Positions 8,291 to 43,440 of a stretch of DNA of 43,440 nucleotides are shown piece after piece (positions within the stretch are counted from its first letter, which is position 1; every line of letters starts with the position of its first letter). The stretch is from IMG/VR virus record IMGVR_UViG_3300043496_000162, positions 1-43,440 of that record; one strand, written 5' to 3'. Origin of the DNA: a virus. Position numbers and translations under genes: made by a program. The notes beneath the pieces are model-generated. The model was not told where the DNA came from, ran no database searches, and was given only the letters and a program-made list of their open reading frames with translations.

Positions 8291-8502
8291 GCAAGGTGAT
8301 CGACACCGCGAAGAAGGTGGTGGGCGCCGTCGGCACCGCGGCGACGATCGCGAGCCTCGTCGGTTTCAAGGTCGAGGGCCGGCCCGTCAAAGACAAGAGC
8401 AAGCCCGCCAAGGTCAAGGCACTCGGGCTGCCGTGGTTCGAGCGCGACGTCGACGGCAAACAGTACGTGCTCTGGTTTCGCATTCGGGACGTGCGGCGGT
8501 GA
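8287..8502 (+). CDS. Small basic protein with hydrophobic helix, lysis cassette
   Basis: The GTG start overlaps the stop of the 32-residue membrane peptide and the stop overlaps the GTG of the amidase. The 71-residue product has an N-terminal amphipathic-to-hydrophobic helix (VIDTAKKVVGAVGTAATIAS) and a basic, lysine-rich middle, then a WF-containing beta-like end (YVLWFRIRDVRR). It might associate with membranes and assist lysis, but no family is recognised. Location and translational coupling support it being a real gene. Confidence 0.6.
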   Translation: MSKVIDTAKKVVGAVGTAATIASLVGFKVEGRPVKDKSKPAKVKALGLPWFERDVDGKQYVLWFRIRDVRR

Positions 8503-9182
8503 TACAGCGCGGCGAGCCGACGCAAGAGATCGTCGCGCACGGCAAGGCGTACCGGTGTCTCGCGCCTGTTCGCACGTGGTCGGCAACCGGCATGCACTTT
8601 TTGACTCGCATGCGGCTCGCGGAAACGCGGTGGATCGTCAACCACTGGACAGGTGCAGAGAACAGCGCCGAGCAGTGTTTCGACAACATGCGCCGGCACG
8701 TCGACAAAGACGGCAAGCCCGAGCCGCTCTCGGTGCACTTCATCGTCGATCAACTCGGCGAGGTTTATCAGTGCGCCGACGTCGCCGCGCGCTGCTCGCA
8801 CGCGCGAGAGAACGGGGGGAATTCATGGGGTGTCGGGATCGAGATCATCAATCGCGGGCACGGCACGACCCCCTCGAAAGGTTTCGAAAGGCCGCGGCGC
8901 ACCGAGCGGATCCACAGGCGCGAGGTTACTTACGGCGAGTTCTATCCCGCTCAGATCTCGAGTGTCATCGCGCTCAACGCCGCGCTTTGCGCTGCTCTCG
9001 AGCTCCCGCTACGGGTGCCCATGAAAGACGGCGACGTTTACCCCACCGTGCTTCCCCCCGGGTACCTCGGCGCGTACCGCGGCGTGCTCGGGCACCTGCA
9101 CCTCGATCGAGGCAAACCCGATCCCGGGCTCGAGCTGCTCAGGCGGATCCACGCGGCCGGGCTGAGCCTTGGGAACGTGTAG
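8499..9182 (+). CDS. Endolysin: N-acetylmuramoyl-L-alanine amidase (Amidase_2/PGRP fold)
   Basis: The start is the GTG overlapping the previous stop, giving 227 residues. The motifs are those of zinc amidases of the AmpD/T7 lysozyme/PGRP fold. WIVNHWTG supplies the first zinc histidine (His49). HFIVDQLGEVYQ (about 80-91) is the conserved central strand pair. SHARENGGNSWGVGIEI (about 100-116) is the substrate-groove region. GHLHLDRGKPDPG (about 198-210) gives the second histidine and the K-x-DPG loop with the third ligand. It cleaves the amide bond between MurNAc and L-Ala to lyse the host. There is no signal peptide, so release should need the small membrane proteins encoded just upstream. 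It is the last gene of the rightward late operon. Confidence 0.93.
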   Translation: MIQRGEPTQEIVAHGKAYRCLAPVRTWSATGMHFLTRMRLAETRWIVNHWTGAENSAEQCFDNMRRHVDKDGKPEPLSVHFIVDQLGEVYQCADVAARCSHARENGGNSWGVGIEIINRGHGTTPSKGFERPRRTERIHRREVTYGEFYPAQISSVIALNAALCAALELPLRVPMKDGDVYPTVLPPGYLGAYRGVLGHLHLDRGKPDPGLELLRRIHAAGLSLGNV

Positions 9183-9217
9183 ACATGTCTAGGTGTCTAC
9201 ATGTATCGGTGTAGACA
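9178..9217. repeat. Octamer array 1 (convergent gap): candidate partition site
   Basis: Five contiguous 8-bp units in perfect register: TGTAGACA (9178), TGTCTAGG (9186), TGTCTACA (9194), TGTATCGG (9202, degenerate) and TGTAGACA (9210). TGTAGACA is the reverse complement of TGTCTACA. The same element, consensus TGTCTASR, forms arrays at 14330-14369 and 28302-28349. Here the array lies in the 59-bp gap between two converging genes (the amidase and a leftward gene) and overlaps the end of the amidase gene by 5 bp, so a promoter-operator role is unlikely. Ribbon-helix-helix partition proteins such as omega of pSM19035 bind arrays of short direct and inverted repeats of this kind. The binding protein is inferred to be the 13252-13614 product. 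Confidence 0.8.
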
Positions 9218-9241
9218 TATGATCGTCAGACGATCGCGCGA

Positions 9242-13046: not shown

Positions 13047-13255
13047 GTCAAACCGCCCGAAAACTCAGAACGCGACAGATAGCCGATGAGCCGGCCGGTG
13101 CAGAGTGCGCACAGCTTCATCGAGTCGGGACCGGTGACATACCGGTAATCGTCCTGAACGTTGGCGACGACGGTGGTGAGGTCGACCGTGTGCAGGTGCT
13201 CGAGCTCGCCGCGCTCGATGTGCACGCACTGCTCGCGCATGACTCGGTTTGTCAT
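13043..13255 (-). CDS. Small hypothetical protein with CxxC
   Basis: The ATG at 13255 overlaps the stop of the ribbon-helix-helix gene (ATGA), giving 70 residues. It contains EQCVHIERGELEHLHTVDLT near the start and a KLCALCTGRLIGYL motif toward the end; the CxxC with His residues could hold zinc. It is translationally coupled to the partition genes and to the next small gene. The function is unknown. Confidence 0.6.
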   Translation of the reverse strand: MTNRVMREQCVHIERGELEHLHTVDLTTVVANVQDDYRYVTGPDSMKLCALCTGRLIGYLSRSEFSGGLT

Positions 13256-13614
13256 CCGACGGCCTCGAGCGTGATGGCCCAATGCTCGGCGAGCGCCTCG
13301 GCCGCGACGTTGCTCAGCGACATGCCGCGTTTGCGCGCGAGTGCGTCGAGCTCGTCGGCCACCTCGAGCGGCAAAAACAGGGTGAGCCGTCGAGTGATGC
13401 GTGCCCCCTTGCGTGTGCCGTCGGGCTGCACCCGGCCCTTCATCGCCACGATCCCGCGGCCGGTGCGCTGCTCGAGCGCGTCACCCGTCGGCGCTCGCTC
13501 GTGCTTTTGCCCGATGCGCGCGAGCTCGCGTTTGAGCGCCTGAGTGTCGCCGGTCGGCTTTGAGCGCCCGACAGGTGCGGTGCGCATGGTGGTGGTCGGC
13601 TTCTTAGGTGGCAC
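13252..13614 (-). CDS. Ribbon-helix-helix DNA-binding protein, candidate ParB-type partner of ParA
   Basis: The GTG at 13614 follows AAAGGA on the minus strand and lies inside the last codons of parA (11-bp overlap), giving 120 residues. The C-terminal 45 residues form a classic ribbon-helix-helix unit: RRLTLFLPLEVADELDALAR (strand and helix 1), then KRGMSLSNVAAEALAEHW (turn and helix 2). The first 70 residues are basic and disordered-looking (PPKKPTTTMRTAPVGRSKPT). A flexible basic N-terminus with a C-terminal RHH is the layout of ParG/omega-type centromere-binding proteins of type Ib partition systems, which contact ParA through the tail. The gene order parA-RHH and the octamer array upstream of parA match this system. 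It likely also represses the operon. The role is inferred. Confidence 0.8.
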   Translation of the reverse strand: MPPKKPTTTMRTAPVGRSKPTGDTQALKRELARIGQKHERAPTGDALEQRTGRGIVAMKGRVQPDGTRKGARITRRLTLFLPLEVADELDALARKRGMSLSNVAAEALAEHWAITLEAVG

Positions 13615-14329: not shown

Positions 14330-14369
14330 CATCTAGGTGTCTACACCTAGACACGTCTACACCTAGACA
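14330..14369. repeat. Octamer array 2 (upstream of parA): candidate centromere/operator
   Basis: Five contiguous 8-bp units in perfect register: CATCTAGG (14330), TGTCTACA (14338), CCTAGACA (14346), CGTCTACA (14354) and CCTAGACA (14362). CCTAGACA is the inverse of TGTCTAGG, so the units alternate in direction. The array lies between parA (leftward) and a rightward operon starting after 14500, and it should cover the parA promoter region. In type Ib systems the RHH protein binds such arrays both to partition the replicon and to repress parA. The first unit contains an alternative parA ATG (14332). Confidence 0.85.
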
Positions 14370-14472
14370 TGCCGGCGAGATCATCCCCCTTCTCAGCTCA
14401 CACGCTTTCGGCGATCCCCCTCACGCGAGCGTTGAATCGAGCGAGCTCTCGGGAGCAGTACCACGGCACCCC

Positions 14473-21030: not shown

Positions 21031-21062
21031 GCGTTATAACGCCGCGTTACAACGCGTCGCAA
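21031..21062 (-). promoter_or_regulatory. Leftward early promoter with tandem operators (OL-like)
   Basis: Two 12-bp operators lie 13 bp apart: GCGTTATAACGC (21031-21042, perfect palindrome) and GCGTTACAACGC (21044-21055, one change). On the minus strand a -35-like TTGCGA (21062-21057) is 18 bp from TATAAC (21038-21033), which lies inside the perfect operator. The leftward gene starts at 21025, close to the expected start of transcription. The same operator pair occurs at 22119-22143. Repressor bound here would cover the -10 box. The arrangement corresponds to lambda OL/PL. Confidence 0.7.
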
Positions 21063-21425: not shown

Positions 21426-22055
21426 TCACCGGCGTCGAAGTGGTGGTTTCAGCGCGAGTGTGCGGTCGAGCTCGGCGTTGAGCTCGGCGACGTCGACGAT
21501 CTCGTCAAGCGGGATTGCACCTAGCAGCGCGAGCGCAACGGCCTCGTACAACGCGACGCTCGGCCGTATCGCCGCGTCTATGAAGCGAATTGAGCGGATC
21601 AGATTCCAATGCTCAGGCGTGAGGTGCGCGGCGATGGGCCGTTGCTTGAACAGCTCGAGCACCGCGCGCGCCTCGGTGTCGCGGCGTTGCACGCTCACCC
21701 TGACCGGCCTCGTCGTCGGCCGCGGTGACGCCGTGTCGAGCGGGTGTCGCTCAGGATGCGCGTGCGTGAGCGCGTCGGGCTCGAGGCCGAGGGCCGCACA
21801 CGCAATGGCTTGATTGTCCGGCGTGAATTCGAAGCCAGCGCACCACCGGTACACGTTGTGATACCCGACGCCACACCAGATCGCGAAATCGGTGCGCCCG
21901 ATCTTGCGCGACTTGAGCAGTGCCGCGAGCCGCTTGCCCTCTTTGAGCCACCCGGGCTGACGTGGCTCGCGTTTCGGCTGTTTTCTAGGCGTTTTCGTAG
22001 CTCGTGAAACGACCGATCGGGGCATGGCGCGCATTGTGATCGCACGGCGGCACAC
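21426..22055 (-). CDS. HTH repressor of the lysogeny switch (Cro/CI-type N-terminus)
   Basis: The GTG at 22055 is chosen because AAAGGGA lies nine bases upstream; an ATG at 22034 and a GTG at 22115 also exist. The product is about 209 residues. Residues about 30-80 (KEGKRLAALLKSRKIGRTDF, then AIWCGVGYHNVYRWCAGFEF, then AIACAALGLEPDAL) fit an XRE/Cro-type HTH. The N-terminus is basic and disordered. The C-terminal 100 residues are helical and lack the Ser-Lys protease domain of lambda/LexA-type repressors, so induction by RecA-driven self-cleavage is not expected. The gene faces the Cro/YdaS-like gene across an operator pair and is the most likely prophage repressor. Binding to the 12-mer operators is inferred. 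Confidence 0.65.
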   Translation of the reverse strand: MCRRAITMRAMPRSVVSRATKTPRKQPKREPRQPGWLKEGKRLAALLKSRKIGRTDFAIWCGVGYHNVYRWCAGFEFTPDNQAIACAALGLEPDALTHAHPERHPLDTASPRPTTRPVRVSVQRRDTEARAVLELFKQRPIAAHLTPEHWNLIRSIRFIDAAIRPSVALYEAVALALLGAIPLDEIVDVAELNAELDRTLALKPPLRRR

Positions 22056-22099
22056 CGGGCAAGATCCCTTTGCATTGCGTATGGGATCTCTCGTCGCGC

Positions 22100-22143
22100 T
22101 TGTGGTGCGTCGCACGTGGCGTTATAACGCCGCGTTATGACGC
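22100..22143 (+). promoter_or_regulatory. Rightward early promoter with tandem operators (OR-like)
   Basis: Operators GCGTTATAACGC (22119-22130) and GCGTTATGACGC (22132-22143) repeat the spacing (13 bp) and sequence of the pair at 21031-21055. A -35-like TTGTGG (22100-22105) is 17 bp from TATAAC (22123-22128), inside the first operator. The second operator covers the ATG at 22137 of the downstream gene, so repressor would block both the -10 box and the start of transcription. The repressor gene begins leftward of this site. Confidence 0.7.
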
Positions 22144-25295: not shown

Positions 25296-25699
25296 TTGTC
25301 ACTCCCTGCAAGCGTGCATTGCGGTTCCCGTGGTTCCCGTTGGTTCCCGTGGTTCCCGGAACCGGAACCGAGGTATGGTTCCCGTGGTTCCCACCACCCT
25401 ATAGGGGTGGGGAACCGCGGAACCACCGCAGAATACGATCCGAAAGAGGGTCGATCGTTCCGCCCCCGGGGGGGGTGCACGTCGCGGTGTCGCTCAGCGG
25501 TGCCCGTTTGGGCCGCTTTCGAGTGGGCGAGGGGGGTAGTGGCTCCGACGAGCTCGCGGCCCTTCTAACCGGCACCGCGGCGAGGGCCGTTGGTTCCCGG
25601 GCGGCCTGCTTTCGAGGGGGCGTTTCGAGGCCGTTTTTGTGTGCAGGCGGAACCACCACCGAGCGCAAGAGAATGGGCACCCGGGGGGGCGTCTCGTGA
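25292..25699 (+). CDS. Doubtful ORF spanning the GGTTCCC repeat region
   Basis: An open frame of 135 codons starts with a GTG overlapping the helicase stop and ends in a TGA overlapping the GTG of the RuvC-like gene, the same coupling as its neighbours. However, its sequence is low-complexity where it crosses the repeats (FPWFPLVPVVPGTGTE) and otherwise lacks recognisable features, and no family is known. It may be a real but poorly conserved gene, or the coupling may be a coincidence over a non-coding origin region. Confidence 0.35.
   Translation: MIVTPCKRALRFPWFPLVPVVPGTGTEVWFPWFPPPYRGGEPRNHRRIRSERGSIVPPPGGVHVAVSLSGARLGRFRVGEGGSGSDELAALLTGTAARAVGSRAACFRGGVSRPFLCAGGTTTERKRMGTRGGVS
25323..25426. 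repeat. GGTTCCCGT repeat cluster, candidate replication origin
   Basis: Six copies of a 9-bp element occur on the plus strand: GGTTCCCGT at 25323, 25332, 25342 and 25377, GGTTCCCGG at 25351 and GGTTCCCAC at 25386. GGAACC in the opposite orientation follows at 25358, 25364, 25411 and 25419. CCACCCTA-TAGGGGTGG between the last two groups is a further inverted repeat. The cluster follows the helicase gene and precedes the RuvC-like gene, as expected for iterons of a phage or plasmid origin. More copies occur near 25590 and 25653. The origin role is inferred. Confidence 0.6.
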
Positions 25700-26938: not shown

Positions 26939-27426
26939 TCGGCACCGATCAAGAGCCCTCACGCAAGGTGCTCGACAAGCTCAACGAAACGCTCGGCGAG
27001 GGCACGTACACGGTCTCTTACGCTCAGGACGCGCACGGCATCACGGGCGTCGTGCGCACGCGCGAGCAACCGCCGCGCGAGTACACCACGCGCTTCACGT
27101 CGGGACAGTCACCCGAGCAGGTTGAGGCCGTGTGGCTCGAGCTCGCCGATCGAGCGAGCAAGTCGATCCGTTTCGAGCGCGAGCAAGAGCAGGCGCGCGC
27201 GAGCGCGTACCGCGAGCCACCTCGGCCCGCACCCGGTGAGCAGACACCGCCACCGGCTGAGCCCTCAACCGAGCAGCCGAAAGCGGAAGCCACCGACGAC
27301 GAGCTCGCCGCGCGCATCGCCGCCCGGCCCAACGCCGAGGGTACGCCCGACGAGGGCACCACCTTTAACGAAGCAAGCGACGACGGCGATCGGAGTGCGG
27401 CCGGCGACAGAGCCCGCACAACCTAA
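26935..27426 (+). CDS. Hypothetical protein, last gene of early rightward operon
   Basis: The ATG at 26935 overlaps the preceding stop. The 163-residue product has an N-terminal globular part (SRKVLDKLNETLGEGTYTVS, QSPEQVEAVWLELADRAS) and a disordered, Pro/Glu-rich C-terminal half (PAPGEQTPPPAEPSTEQP). The N-terminal part has a TYTVSYAQD...TGVVRTREQ strand pair. No family is recognised. It precedes a 200-bp control region and is therefore the probable end of the early operon. Confidence 0.6.
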   Translation: MIGTDQEPSRKVLDKLNETLGEGTYTVSYAQDAHGITGVVRTREQPPREYTTRFTSGQSPEQVEAVWLELADRASKSIRFEREQEQARASAYREPPRPAPGEQTPPPAEPSTEQPKAEATDDELAARIAARPNAEGTPDEGTTFNEASDDGDRSAAGDRARTT

Positions 27427-27457
27427 TGAGATCCATGCGTTACGACGTACACCCGGG

Positions 27458-27495
27458 CCTCATTTAGTCCGTCAGTTAGTCGGGACTAAGTGAGG
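27458..27495 (+). terminator. Long hairpin after the early rightward operon
   Basis: CCTCATTTAGTCC (27458-27470) pairs with GGACTAAGTGAGG (27483-27495) over 13 positions with one mismatch, around a 12-base loop. It lies 32 bp after the last early gene and is not followed by a T-run, so it may be a factor-dependent terminator, an mRNA 3' stabiliser or an operator. The remaining gap to 27630 is a likely late promoter region, with TTGTAAAT and TTGACG-like stretches close to the next start. Confidence 0.5.
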
Positions 27496-27630
27496 TGCCG
27501 CGGTGCCGGGAATCGTGCCGGGCGCGATCTTTTCCACCCCCGGGGTAACAGTGCCGGGGGCGCCAAGGCCGGGGGGCGTCGCGCGTGTGATACGGGCACA
27601 GTTTTGTAAATCTCAACCGTTGACGTTGTA

Positions 27631-28308
27631 ATGGCCAGTAAAAACGCCACGAAATCAGCCGTTCGCGCGCGCGAGTCAACATCGGGAACGGACGGCGACG
27701 ACACGTCAACGCCGCTCGAGCCCGACGTTGACAAGCGGCCGGCGAAAAAGGTGCGGTCGGAGGGGCAACGCCTGCTCATGCTTGTGCCCGGATCGCTGCA
27801 ACAGATCGGCGACTCGATCGGCGCCACGAAACAGGCCGTAGCGTTGTGGCGTGACGGTGCGCGCGTGCCGGAAGAAAAGTGGCGGCGCAAGTTGCACGCG
27901 CTCTATGACATCTTGCCCGACGCGTGGGGGTACGGCCCGGGCGAGGCCCCTGTCGACGAGCCCGACGAGCCACCCGCCGAGCCACAGCTCGAGCGCGAGC
28001 CGACGGCCCTCGAGGATGTGAGCCGACTGCTCAGCTTGCTCAGAACGCAGCTCAACCGGCCGAACCTGCTCGCCCGAGAGCGCGCTCAGCTCGGCGACGC
28101 GTTCGCACGCGCGCTCACACAGAAAGAACGGCTCGAGCGTGCGCGCGAGATGCTCGAGGACCGCGTGATCCGCGAGCACCCGCAGTGGCAACGCCTGAAA
28201 AACGAGATTATCGCGGCGCTCATCCCGCACCCGGAAGCCGCTCGAGACGTCGAGGCCGCGATCGCCCGCGTGCTCGCCGCCGACGCCGCGGCCGACGATG
28301 TACCCTAG
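27631..28308 (+). CDS. Candidate terminase small subunit / HTH DNA-binding protein
   Basis: The 225-residue product has a basic N-terminus, an HTH at about residues 45-85 (RLLMLVPGSLQQIGDSIGAT, then KQAVALWRDGARVPEEKWRR), a Pro/Glu-rich linker and a helical C-terminus (LTQKERLERAREMLEDRVIR, then EHPQWQRLKNEIIAALIPHP). DNA-binding N-terminus, central coiled coil and C-terminal oligomerisation part is the layout of small terminases, and 'HP.W..L...I..AL.P.PEA' recalls them. It is the first gene of the late region, upstream of the large terminase. It could alternatively be a late regulator. The stop codon lies inside the first unit of octamer array 3. Confidence 0.55.
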   Translation: MASKNATKSAVRARESTSGTDGDDTSTPLEPDVDKRPAKKVRSEGQRLLMLVPGSLQQIGDSIGATKQAVALWRDGARVPEEKWRRKLHALYDILPDAWGYGPGEAPVDEPDEPPAEPQLEREPTALEDVSRLLSLLRTQLNRPNLLARERAQLGDAFARALTQKERLERAREMLEDRVIREHPQWQRLKNEIIAALIPHPEAARDVEAAIARVLAADAAADDVP

Positions 28309-28349
28309 GTGTAGATGCATCTAGGTGTCTACGTGTCTACACGTCTACA
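28302..28349. repeat. Octamer array 3 (inside packaging operon): candidate centromere/operator
   Basis: Six contiguous 8-bp units in perfect register: ACCCTAGG (28302, degenerate), TGTAGATG (28310), CATCTAGG (28318), TGTCTACG (28326), TGTCTACA (28334) and CGTCTACA (28342). The last four run in the same direction. The array fills the gap between the candidate small terminase and the next gene and ends 17 bp before its ATG, so bound protein could block read-through into the late genes. It repeats the element found at 9178-9217 and 14330-14369. Confidence 0.85.
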
Positions 28350-28366
28350 CGAGAAAGGATCGAGCT

Positions 28367-28576
28367 ATGAAAGGTCACAACTCCCGCTCGCTCACCGGCG
28401 AGCAGATCGACGAGGTTGCGCGACGCTACCGGGCCGGCGAGACAGTCGACGAGCTCGCCCTCGCATTCAAGGTGTCGACGGCACCGATCCGCAACGCGCT
28501 CAGGATCCGCGCGGTGCGCATGCGCGTCGGCGCCGGCCGCTCGTCGAGCCGCGTCGGCGGGTGGGGCATCTCGTGA
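28367..28576 (+). CDS. Small HTH protein downstream of array 3
   Basis: AGAAAGGA precedes the ATG at 28367, giving 69 residues. LTGEQIDEVARRYRAGETVD, ELALAFKVSTAPIRNALR is a helix-turn-helix of the resolvase/Hin-type ('I...Y..GET...LA..F.VS...I...L'). The C-terminus is basic with Arg/Ser. It could be a regulator of late genes or a DNA-packaging accessory, as it is adjacent to the array and to packaging genes. The stop overlaps the next GTG. Confidence 0.7.
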   Translation: MKGHNSRSLTGEQIDEVARRYRAGETVDELALAFKVSTAPIRNALRIRAVRMRVGAGRSSSRVGGWGIS

Positions 28577-28899
28577 CGCTGAGCGAGCCCACACCGTTCG
28601 AGCTCGAGCTCGCCGCGAGCGTGGCCGAGGTGGCCGAGCAGAGTGCGAGCGCCGATCTCGCACCGCTCATCGCCGGTGCGCTCGCCAGCCACCGCACGCG
28701 CCTCGCCGGGCTCGCGGTGGCCATGCTCCCGGCCTCGAGCTGCACCGTGTCCGACGAGGTGCTCGAGCACATGGCCGAGGGGTGGACACCACAGCAAGTG
28801 CGCGCGCTGATCGCCGATCACCGTGCGCTCAGGTCGCAACTCGCCCGCGCCCGCGAGCTCATGCCCGCGGTGCTCGAGGATGATCGGGGGGAACCGTGA
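28573..28899 (+). CDS. Small helical hypothetical protein
   Basis: The GTG at 28573 overlaps the preceding stop. The 108-residue product is almost all helix: ELELAASVAEVAEQSASADL, LIAGALASHRTRLAGLAVAM, EHMAEGWTPQQVRALIADHR. It could contribute to terminase or a packaging motor, but no family is recognised. The stop overlaps the next gene. Confidence 0.6.
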   Translation: MTLSEPTPFELELAASVAEVAEQSASADLAPLIAGALASHRTRLAGLAVAMLPASSCTVSDEVLEHMAEGWTPQQVRALIADHRALRSQLARARELMPAVLEDDRGEP

Positions 28900-29177: not shown

Positions 29178-30848
29178 ATGGCCACACCCTCGATCGCAAG
29201 CGAGGTGAAGCGGCGCATGGGCCGCCCGAGCAAGCGTGACGGGGGGCCGCTCACGTTCGCGGGCGATTTCGCGGCCTCGTTTTTTCCGGCGCTTCATGCC
29301 TCGTTCGGCGTGACGTTCCCGTCGACGATGTACCGCGACGATCCGGTGCGGCACTCGCGCGAGATCCTCGGCGTCGAGCCGTGGTCGGAACAGGTGCGCA
29401 TTCTCGAGGCCGTGCGCGATCACCCGCGCGTCGCCGTCAAGAGTGGCCACAAGATCGGCAAGAGCTCGAGCGCTGCACAGATCGCACTCTGGTTTTACGA
29501 CTCGTTCGAGGCCGCGCGCGTCGTCATGACGAGCACGACGGCCCGACAGGTTGACGAGATCCTATGGCGTGAGTTGCGCATGATGCACGCGCGCTCGGGC
29601 CGGTGTGTCGCCTGCAAGCGCGAGCTCGAGCGGGCGCCGGGAGCGCGCATCCCGCGGCCGTGCCCGCACTCGAGTCTCATCGGCGGCGATCTCGGCGACC
29701 TTGCGCGTACCGGTTTGCGTAGTGACGACTTTCGCGAAATCACCGGGTTTACCGCAAAAAGCGCCGAGGCCGTCGCCGGCATCTCGGGCGAAAATGTCCT
29801 GTACATCGTCGACGAGGCGAGCGGCGTTGCTCAGGAGATCTACGAAGCGATCGAGGGCAATCGCGCGGGCTCGGCGCGGCTCGTGCTGTTCGGCAATCCC
29901 ACCAAAAACGAGGGCGAGTTTTACGACGCGTTCAACTCGAAATCGCGCCTGTATCACGGGATCACAGTCTCGAGCGAGTCGACGCCGAACGTCGTCACCG
30001 GCAAACGCGTCGTGCCGGGCCTCGCGACGAGAGAGTGGGTCGAGGAAAAAGCCGACGAGTGGGGCCGCAAGTCGGCGCTGTTCAAAGTGCGCGTACTCGG
30101 TGAATTCGCCGAGCATGAGGAAGGTAAGATCTTCAGCCTGCACACGATCGAGCAAGCCGAGCAACGGTGGGATGAGACGCCGGCCGCGGGCCGCTTGTAC
30201 ATCGGGCTCGATCCCGCGGGTGAGAAGGGCCGCGGCGACGACATTGTGTATGCGCCTCGACGTGGGCTCAAAGCGCTCGAGATGCGCGTCACCCGCGGCC
30301 TCGATGAGCAAGGGCACCTCGTCGAGCTCTTGCGGCTCTTGCAGGTGCACAAACACCCGCGCGAAACGCCCGTCGTCGTCGTCGATCGCGAGGGTAGCGT
30401 CGGCTCGAAGGTGTACCTCGCGCTACGCAACTATGCCGACGAGCACCCGGGCGAAATGGAGGTGGTCGGCGTGCGCGCGAGCGACAGAGCCATGCGCCAG
30501 CCTGAGCTTTACGATCGCATGCGCGATGCACTCGCCGCGTCGCTCTCAGCGTGGATCGACGCCGGGGGTGCCATCGCCGAAGATGCCAAGCTCGCGAAAG
30601 AGTTGCACGCGCTCGAGTGGAAACAGCGGGCCGACGGGCGCGTCAAGGTCACCGACAAAGAGACGTTGCGCAAGATGCTCGGCCGCTCGCCCGATCGATA
30701 CGACGCGCTCGCGCTCTCGACGTGGGAGCCGCTCTCATTGCGTGACGACGGCACCGGCACCGGCGCTGCACCTCGACCAGACCTCGATCGCCACTCGCGC
30801 GGCGGGCTCGATCCCTACGCCGCCGCGCGTAAGTGGGAGCGGCGGTAG
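29178..30848 (+). CDS. Terminase large subunit
   Basis: This 556-residue protein shows the ATPase and nuclease motifs of large terminases: VKSGHKIGKSSSA (Walker A-like, about 87-99), VLYIVDEASGV (Walker B and catalytic Glu, about 207-217), FGNPTKNEGEFYDAF (coupling region) and YIGLDPAGEKGRGDD (nuclease Asp, about 342-356), with further acidic sites (VVVVDREGSVG). It translocates DNA into the procapsid and cuts it. Residues about 144-167 hold a CVAC...CPH cluster, an apparent zinc-ribbon insertion between Walker A and B not usual in the family. It is encoded upstream of the portal, as expected. Confidence 0.95.
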   Translation: MATPSIASEVKRRMGRPSKRDGGPLTFAGDFAASFFPALHASFGVTFPSTMYRDDPVRHSREILGVEPWSEQVRILEAVRDHPRVAVKSGHKIGKSSSAAQIALWFYDSFEAARVVMTSTTARQVDEILWRELRMMHARSGRCVACKRELERAPGARIPRPCPHSSLIGGDLGDLARTGLRSDDFREITGFTAKSAEAVAGISGENVLYIVDEASGVAQEIYEAIEGNRAGSARLVLFGNPTKNEGEFYDAFNSKSRLYHGITVSSESTPNVVTGKRVVPGLATREWVEEKADEWGRKSALFKVRVLGEFAEHEEGKIFSLHTIEQAEQRWDETPAAGRLYIGLDPAGEKGRGDDIVYAPRRGLKALEMRVTRGLDEQGHLVELLRLLQVHKHPRETPVVVVDREGSVGSKVYLALRNYADEHPGEMEVVGVRASDRAMRQPELYDRMRDALAASLSAWIDAGGAIAEDAKLAKELHALEWKQRADGRVKVTDKETLRKMLGRSPDRYDALALSTWEPLSLRDDGTGTGAAPRPDLDRHSRGGLDPYAAARKWERR

Positions 30849-42498: not shown

Positions 42499-43440
42499 CG
42501 ACGGACCTCTATGCCGGCGTGAACGGCCATCGGCTCACCGCGGTGCGTCTCACCGTGGGCAACGCCGGGCCGTGGATCGCCGACGTCGATTTCGAGGGCG
42601 AGCCCGACGTATCGGGCCGGGTGACGCTCTCGATCGGCCCGCTCGAGCTCTCGGGAACGATCGTGGCGAGCGCGTCGGGTACGTTCGGCCTGCAACGTCG
42701 CGCGCGCATCATTGCCGGCGCCGGTGCGTGGGCGAATGAGGTGCCCGCCAAGGCGTATCACAACGATGCCGGCGTGAAGGCGCTCAGCGTCGCCGAGGAT
42801 GCAGCGCGAGCCGTCGGCGAGACGCTCGGCACGTTTGTGCCGGCCGCTGAGCGCGTGTGGCGAGACTACGCTCGGCAGGTGGGGCCGGCCTCGCGCGCGC
42901 TCGAGGATGTACTCGGCGGCGTGCCGTGGTGGGTCGACTATGCCGGCGTGACGCATGCCGGGCCGAGGCCGGCGACGGCCGTTGAGCCCAAAGCGTACAC
43001 GGTGCTCGCGTACGATCCGCGCGACAGGATCGCGACGCTCGCCGTCGACGATCCGGGAGCCGTGCGCATCGGCTCGATCCTCACCGAGCGGCTCGACGGC
43101 TCGCATACGGTGCGCTCGCTCGAGCTGCGCGTCACGGCCGGCGAGCTGCGCGTACTCGCGTGGGTAGGTGGCACCGAAAGCGGCCTCGGCAACTTGGCGG
43201 CGATCCTCAAAGCGATCGTGCACCGCTCGACGGACGGGCACCTGTTCGGGCACTACCGTTACCGCGTCGTGCGCATGGCCGGCGAGCGCGTCGAGCTGCA
43301 AGCGGTGCGGCGGGCCGTGGGCTTGCCCGATCTCTTGCCCCTGTCGGTGTGGCCGGGCATCGCCGGTGCGCACGCCGAGCTCGCGCCCGGTGCCGAGGTG
43401 CTCGTCGGTTTCATCGAGGGCGATCGCACTCAGCCCGTCG
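42495..43440 (+). CDS. Baseplate hub/spike protein, N-terminal part (gene continues at position 1)
   Basis: The ATG at 42495 overlaps the preceding stop (ATGA). The frame is open to the window end and, through the exact 127-bp overlap, continues to 363, giving 393 residues in all. The N-terminal 280 residues are hub-like (P2 gpD/Mu gp44-type beta-barrels): TTDLYAGVNGHRLTAVRLTV, ADVDFEGEPDVSGRVTLSIG, a central ALEDVLGGVPWWVDYAGVTH region, and GHLFGHYRYRVVRMAGERVE near the join. They are followed by the OB-fold described for 1-363. The hub nucleates baseplate assembly. Hub plus OB in one chain, as in gp27-gp5-like fusions, is seen in some simple baseplates. Confidence 0.8.
   Translation, partial: MTTDLYAGVNGHRLTAVRLTVGNAGPWIADVDFEGEPDVSGRVTLSIGPLELSGTIVASASGTFGLQRRARIIAGAGAWANEVPAKAYHNDAGVKALSVAEDAARAVGETLGTFVPAAERVWRDYARQVGPASRALEDVLGGVPWWVDYAGVTHAGPRPATAVEPKAYTVLAYDPRDRIATLAVDDPGAVRIGSILTERLDGSHTVRSLELRVTAGELRVLAWVGGTESGLGNLAAILKAIVHRSTDGHLFGHYRYRVVRMAGERVELQAVRRAVGLPDLLPLSVWPGIAGAHAELAPGAEVLVGFIEGDRTQPV
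43314..43440. repeat. Terminal direct repeat (copy of 1-127): circular molecule
   Basis: The last 127 bases are identical to the first 127, and a gene reads through the join in frame. This indicates a circular or circularly permuted genome of 43,313 bp. A repeat of 127 bp is the usual leftover of assembly with a k-mer of 127, not a biological terminal repeat. Confidence 0.95.

Follow-up and report, generated by a model that had tools for sequence, protein, structure and literature searches.

An 8-bp repeat array in the packaging operon of a Mu-like phage is very probably a dispersed partition site

The stretch of DNA analyzed here (the window) is the whole of the 43,440-nucleotide viral record IMGVR_UViG_3300043496_000162 of IMG/VR. 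A nucleotide search of phage records with the window gave no match; its virion genes are Mu-like (portal, PF06074; Baseplate_J). The packaging cluster contains a candidate gene for the small terminase (TerS), a small HTH gene and the gene for the large terminase (TerL), in that order (Table 1). The TerS candidate belongs to no Pfam family and had no significant PHROG match, and its identity is based on its place beside TerL, which is kept in relatives, and on an HTH-like stretch recognized by eye. Among the relatives searched, the HTH gene was present only in loci with a TerL about 74% identical or more, and most of these loci have an adjoining repeat array. Just upstream of the TerS candidate (27537-27582, + strand) there is a conserved element made up of a C-run, ACAGTGC, GGGGG and then CCAAGGCCGGGGGG. 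Seven genomes or loci that match this pattern have one copy each, whether or not they bear arrays, and diverged forms are found in G005 and G007. An Rfam search with the element gave no match; it is possibly a cos or pac site or a late leader.

The gap from the TerS candidate to the HTH gene holds six 8-bp units (array 3). In direct reading, they run head-to-tail in the order CCTAGGTG TAGATGCA TCTAGGTG TCTACGTG TCTACACG TCTACACG, and Tandem Repeats Finder assigned the array a period of 8. The first unit contains the TAG stop codon (28306-28308) of the TerS candidate. There are 15 nt from the end of the array to the ATG (28367) of the HTH gene, with a Shine-Dalgarno-like AGAAAGGA between them. 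A first-pass annotation of this DNA had placed six units at 28302-28349, with the first beginning in the stop codon of the candidate small terminase. The array is real, and the interval given differs from ours only by a register offset of 2. When shifted by 4, the unit consensus, TMKASRYG, nearly equals its reverse complement, which puts a two-fold axis at every 4 bp of the array.

Table 1. Positions of the repeat arrays and of the partition, packaging and amidase genes in the window.
Feature	Coordinates	Strand	Evidence and remarks
N-acetylmuramoyl-L-alanine amidase gene	8433..9182 (start may be 8499)	+	Pfam Amidase_2 5.5e-18; stop codon in array 1
Array 1, five units, predicted parS	9180..9219	+	starts in amidase stop codon, between convergent genes
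parB, 120 aa, C-terminal ribbon-helix-helix (RHH) domain	13252..13614	-	GTG start is a choice
parA, type Ib partition ATPase, 234 aa	13604..14308	-	Pfam CbiA 1.2e-11; PHROG ParA-like partition protein 1.6e-34
Array 2, five units, predicted par operator and parS	14332..14371	-	23 nt upstream of parA start
Candidate small terminase (TerS) gene	27631..28308	+	synteny with TerL in relatives
Array 3, predicted ParB-binding parS site in packaging operon	28304..28351	+	six 8-bp units
Small HTH gene, 69 aa, directly downstream of array 3	28367..28576	+	PHROG DNA binding protein 1.5e-6
Large terminase (TerL) gene	29178..30848	+	PHROG terminase large subunit 4.7e-31

We found that a motif is common to all three arrays of the window, as assessed by leave-one-out scoring. 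With a motif made from arrays 1 and 2 alone, array 3 scored 31.8 bits (best three units), and the highest score outside the arrays in the window with the leave-one-out motif was 8.6 bits. Arrays in relatives were identified with a motif-free detector (period 8, an axis every 4 bp), followed by the construction of one motif per genome. Because this unsupervised detector is insensitive (window array 2 fell within the shuffle range, and arrays 1 and 3 were missed at the threshold), the window arrays rest on the leave-one-out test. Units that are partly self-complementary might also form a leader RNA hairpin or attenuator, or the array might be a neutral tandem repeat. However, the predicted RNA folding did not surpass that of shuffled sequences (z -0.67 to -0.01, four sequences), and Rfam gave no match at the gathering score and only implausible ones at lax E-values. 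The sharing of the motif with two other arrays and the conservation of position described below argue against a hairpin and against a neutral repeat alike, and we regard both readings as barely credible.

Array 2 lies upstream of a pair of putative partition genes. ParA has a Walker-type KGGNGKST sequence at its N-terminus and no N-terminal HTH. Its best named tblastn matches were in plasmids, namely Sandaracinus pSa001 (44%) and Myxococcus fulvus pMF1 (35%), and as the sole query it found no match in viral contigs. The parB gene overlaps the 3' end of parA. Its product matched RHH_1 with an E-value of 0.0016, which is under the Pfam cut-off, and an alignment served as further evidence for the domain. 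An AlphaFold model of ParB has a strand-helix-helix arrangement with a pLDDT of about 90 over the RHH part, and Foldseek with this model returned CdbA, CopG and Arc among the first matches, all with weak E-values. No credible relative of ParB was recovered from plasmids (tblastn) or from PDB sequences. ParA proteins of type Ib range from 192 to 308 aa (PMC3235114), and for an RHH ParB of this type we used a size range of 46-131 aa. The window has a ParA of such a size without an N-terminal DNA-binding domain, a small adjoining RHH ParB, and repeats upstream of the par operon, as in type Ib ParABS systems. Because array 3 is the same element as the array at the parA promoter, the RHH partition protein would very probably bind there as well, and the sequence thus lends support to the binding that the first-pass annotation had proposed. 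We take array 3 to be, very probably, a parS (centromere) site in a dispersed set that belongs to a type Ib ParABS system.

Other properties of the window indicate how such a phage might be maintained. There was no match in the window to a tyrosine or serine recombinase (PF00589, PF00239). The ends of the window are identical over 127 nt (1-127 and 43314-43440), giving a circular map, whereas IMG/VR seems to class the record as linear. Identical ends of this kind are also present in G002, G004, G005 and G008; 127 nt is perhaps an assembly k-mer length. From the par genes, the circular map and the lack of an integrase match, we infer that the prophage is a plasmid. We gathered relatives by a TerL search of contigs and found ParA in six genomes, the window (G000), G001, G004, G005, G006 and G008. 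A tyrosine integrase was found in none of these six, compared to 9 of the 11 par-less genomes (hypergeometric P about 0.002, calculated by hand and ignoring kinship and incomplete contigs). Four further loci (G007, G028, L027 and L028) are fragments and may or may not carry par genes. Of the 379 genomes in the phylum to which G034, a deltaproteobacterial MAG, belongs, 7 had TerL relatives, and one TerL relative was in an actinobacterial MAG (L100). Judging from the relatives in the phylum of G034 and from the myxobacterial plasmids that gave the best named ParA matches, the host is likely to be one of the Myxococcota. Two other sets of repeats were seen in the window. Units of GGTTCCCGT, direct and inverted, occur at 25323-25391, just after a DnaB-like helicase gene, and are possible replication iterons. 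Boxes of GCGTTRYAACGCC (21031-21055 and 22119-22143) flank a gene at 21426-22115 (- strand) with a weak PHROG match to a transcriptional repressor; the gene and the boxes may be a classical repressor and its operators.

Each of the six genomes with par genes has an array upstream of its parA. There were five arrays in G001 and in G004, four in G005, three in G008 and in the window, and at least three, plus weaker ones, in G006. We detected no arrays in the ParA-less genomes G002, G003, G012 and G016 (G003 and G012 are partial contigs); one borderline place in G003 scored 24.7, compared to a shuffle maximum of 23.6, and had no par context. The motif was common to the arrays within one genome but different between genomes (ACATGTNN in G005, CACYRGTG in G001, GACWWGTC in G006, and a TAC-TTGG type in G004), as would follow if a separate ParB recognized each of them. 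The leave-one-out test held in all but G006, where other array-like places scored about the same as the array left out. Motifs of some genomes partly overlap, and the specificity of ParB may overlap between genomes as well.

The placement of an array in the packaging cluster is kept across several relatives, in agreement with its earlier description as an element inside the packaging operon. The window, G005, G007 and G028 all have an array in the gap that separates the TerS candidate from the HTH gene. Where this gap holds an insert, as in L028 and G006, the array still adjoins the HTH gene (just upstream of it in G006). The insert in L028, of about 1.3 kb (L028:709-1982), separates the TerS candidate from the array and has a QueC-like start (LFSGGMDSTAC, by eye). 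The packaging array of G004 is just upstream of TerS, and that of G008 is between two later ORFs. The packaging-cluster arrays of G006 and G008 have only three units. Arrays also recur at or beyond the 3' end of the amidase gene (the window, G005, G008 and G004). With the rough gene calls that underlie all our array-to-gene distances, 19 of 28 arrays were no more than 20 nt from the 3' end of a gene, compared to about 11% expected.

We compared the window arrays with the partition sites of pMF1. ParB of this plasmid binds six dispersed iterons with units like AGATGTCT, as determined by footprint and EMSA; two of the iterons are beside the par genes and the others are dispersed, and par expression goes up at least 200-fold without parA and parB (PMC3235114). 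The window motif, unchanged and built without pMF1, picked out six places in pMF1 (EU137666; 0-based 13512, 14108, 14951, 15867, 17352 and 18601) with scores of 12.4-32.3 bits, and the seventh place scored -1.1. By coordinates, two of the six are ItA and ItB, and by gene, two others are those in pMF1.14 and pMF1.16 (PMC3235114). In a control with reversed pMF1, the score of 16.2 at position 0 was that of the reversed end repeat ItB itself, and the next value was 6.7. The window has three dispersed sites with a unit close to that of the pMF1 iterons. A pMF1 par locus, with ParB homologous over its full length and parC upstream of parA, was not found in the window, and the likeness of the two ParB proteins does not extend beyond the RHH part (hhalign probability 19%).

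Array 3 could also be an operator for some dedicated repressor that is not ParB, such as the neighboring HTH protein, the gene for which is directly downstream and, in the relatives searched, occurs mostly in array-bearing loci. We consider this very improbable: units with the same motif make up arrays 1 and 2, which lie at the amidase end and the parA promoter, respectively, G004 and G008 have arrays although no HTH homologue was found in them, and the motif matches the iterons of pMF1, whose ParB is RHH-like.

The first-pass annotation had further proposed that the RHH protein at array 3 represses terminase and all downstream head and tail genes in the lysogen, as a second lysogeny lock, and such repression might act by covering a promoter or by a roadblock to polymerase. 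RHH ParB proteins do repress promoters that they overlap (PMC9499535; pMF1, PMC3235114). In addition, array 3 takes up the whole gap as far as the ribosome site of the HTH gene, its place recurs in relatives, and in L028 and G006 the array is beside the HTH gene despite other sequence between TerS and HTH. However, a scan with an E. coli-type consensus, which may miss host promoters, found no sigma-70-like promoter at 27350-28700; a terminator scan of the site gave two weak terminator-like matches, on the other strand and near chance. The TerS candidate is upstream of array 3 and so could not be blocked by it. Comparison of L027 with L058, which are 92-95% identical, revealed that the junction in L027 is missing a stretch of about 27 nt that contains most of the array, with an unchanged ribosome site and 23 nt from stop to start. 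Given this array-less junction of 23 nt, the HTH gene of L027 is probably read through from upstream, and an effect in the array-bearing form would then need a roadblock rather than promoter occlusion. Moreover, about ten of the 22 arrays that are not at parA have no gene start to control within 60 nt downstream (rough gene calls); array 1, between convergent genes, is an example in the window. The same core packaging genes are also found in relatives without arrays, including G002 and G016. The silencing of packaging genes by array 3 therefore has little support, and a second lysogeny lock is unlikely.

Another effect on transcription can be envisioned from N15. The Sop system of this phage-plasmid has dispersed partition sites (IR1-IR4), some of them reportedly near late regulatory elements. 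Ravin, Rech and Lane (2008) reportedly found that these partition sites help late expression. By analogy, array 3 might serve in partition and also tune, possibly help, the expression of late or packaging genes during lytic growth. The conservation of position despite the divergence of motifs and the packaging array just upstream of TerS in G004 are consistent with a dual role, but the lack of the array at the TerS/HTH junction of L027 and the different class (HTH) of the N15 ParB count against it, and we think it doubtful. There are hints, in the position of array 3, which most of the relatives searched have kept, and in the array beside the HTH gene in G006 and L028, that it is more than a freely placed centromere. 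Also doubtful is the idea of a phage family of myxobacteria in which a centromere is fixed in the packaging operon and ParB occupancy in the plasmid state would change expression of the HTH gene, TerL and genes downstream, tying maintenance to the lytic programme.

We consider it highly likely that the window has a type Ib ParABS system with three dispersed parS sites, of which array 3 is one, and that this system keeps a Mu-like myovirus, probably with a myxobacterial host, as a plasmid prophage. This interpretation brings together the arrays and their shared motif, the par genes, the conserved position in relatives and the lack of an integrase match in the window. Dimers of the RHH ParB would bind side by side on the 8-bp units, and the ParB-parS complex would stimulate the ATPase of nucleoid-bound ParA, such that copies of the prophage would be segregated. 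At array 2, the same binding by ParB would also repress the parAB promoter. Array 3 separates two packaging genes of the same orientation, and there partition would be the main role and any effect on transcription a side effect.

This metagenome phage family, with relatives in genomes of the Myxococcota, appears to live as a plasmid by means of pMF1-like partition instead of an integrase. It provides natural pairs of ParB and parS whose specificities differ, every pair being read from more than one array in its genome, and such pairs should be useful for learning how RHH proteins choose their sites. A conserved centromere in the packaging operon also makes the influence of a partition protein on the lytic switch directly testable.

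Several known systems resemble that of the window in part. N15 is a linear prophage with a type Ia system and an HTH-type ParB (SopB), whereas the window has a type Ib system, an RHH ParB and a circular map. The delta/omega system of pSM19035 from Streptococcus pyogenes has an RHH ParB, and its short units form arrays at several places that act both as centromere and as operator, but it is from a Firmicutes plasmid, its units are of 7 bp (WATCACW), and its arrays are over known promoters (copS, delta, omega) (PMC9499535). At least four contiguous repeats are needed in that system (PMC9499535), a number reached by the window arrays, with five or six units each, but not by the three-unit packaging-cluster arrays of G006 and G008. 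RedRock and other cluster A mycobacteriophages are temperate, integrase-less and extrachromosomal, as is predicted for the phage described here, with repeated 8-bp parS units (eight direct repeats in the RedRock sites) (PMC7157519). They are distant phages, and their described parS sites are beside parAB or repA, outside the packaging operon (PMC7157519). The ParA of the pMF1 parCAB system is of type Ib and shares 36% identity with that of the window over the hhalign alignment, and the system also has a small RHH-like ParB, a unit (TCTAGATG) nearly identical to TCTAGGTG and TCTACACG of the window, and dispersed sites, one of them upstream of the par genes. In contrast to the window, pMF1 is a plasmid rather than a phage, has no sites in a packaging operon, and has an extra parC upstream of parA, where the window has array 2 directly upstream. 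Most likely, the window represents a known type, a phage-plasmid with pMF1-like ParABS, and what is unusual in it, and conserved, is the place of a parS site in the packaging operon.
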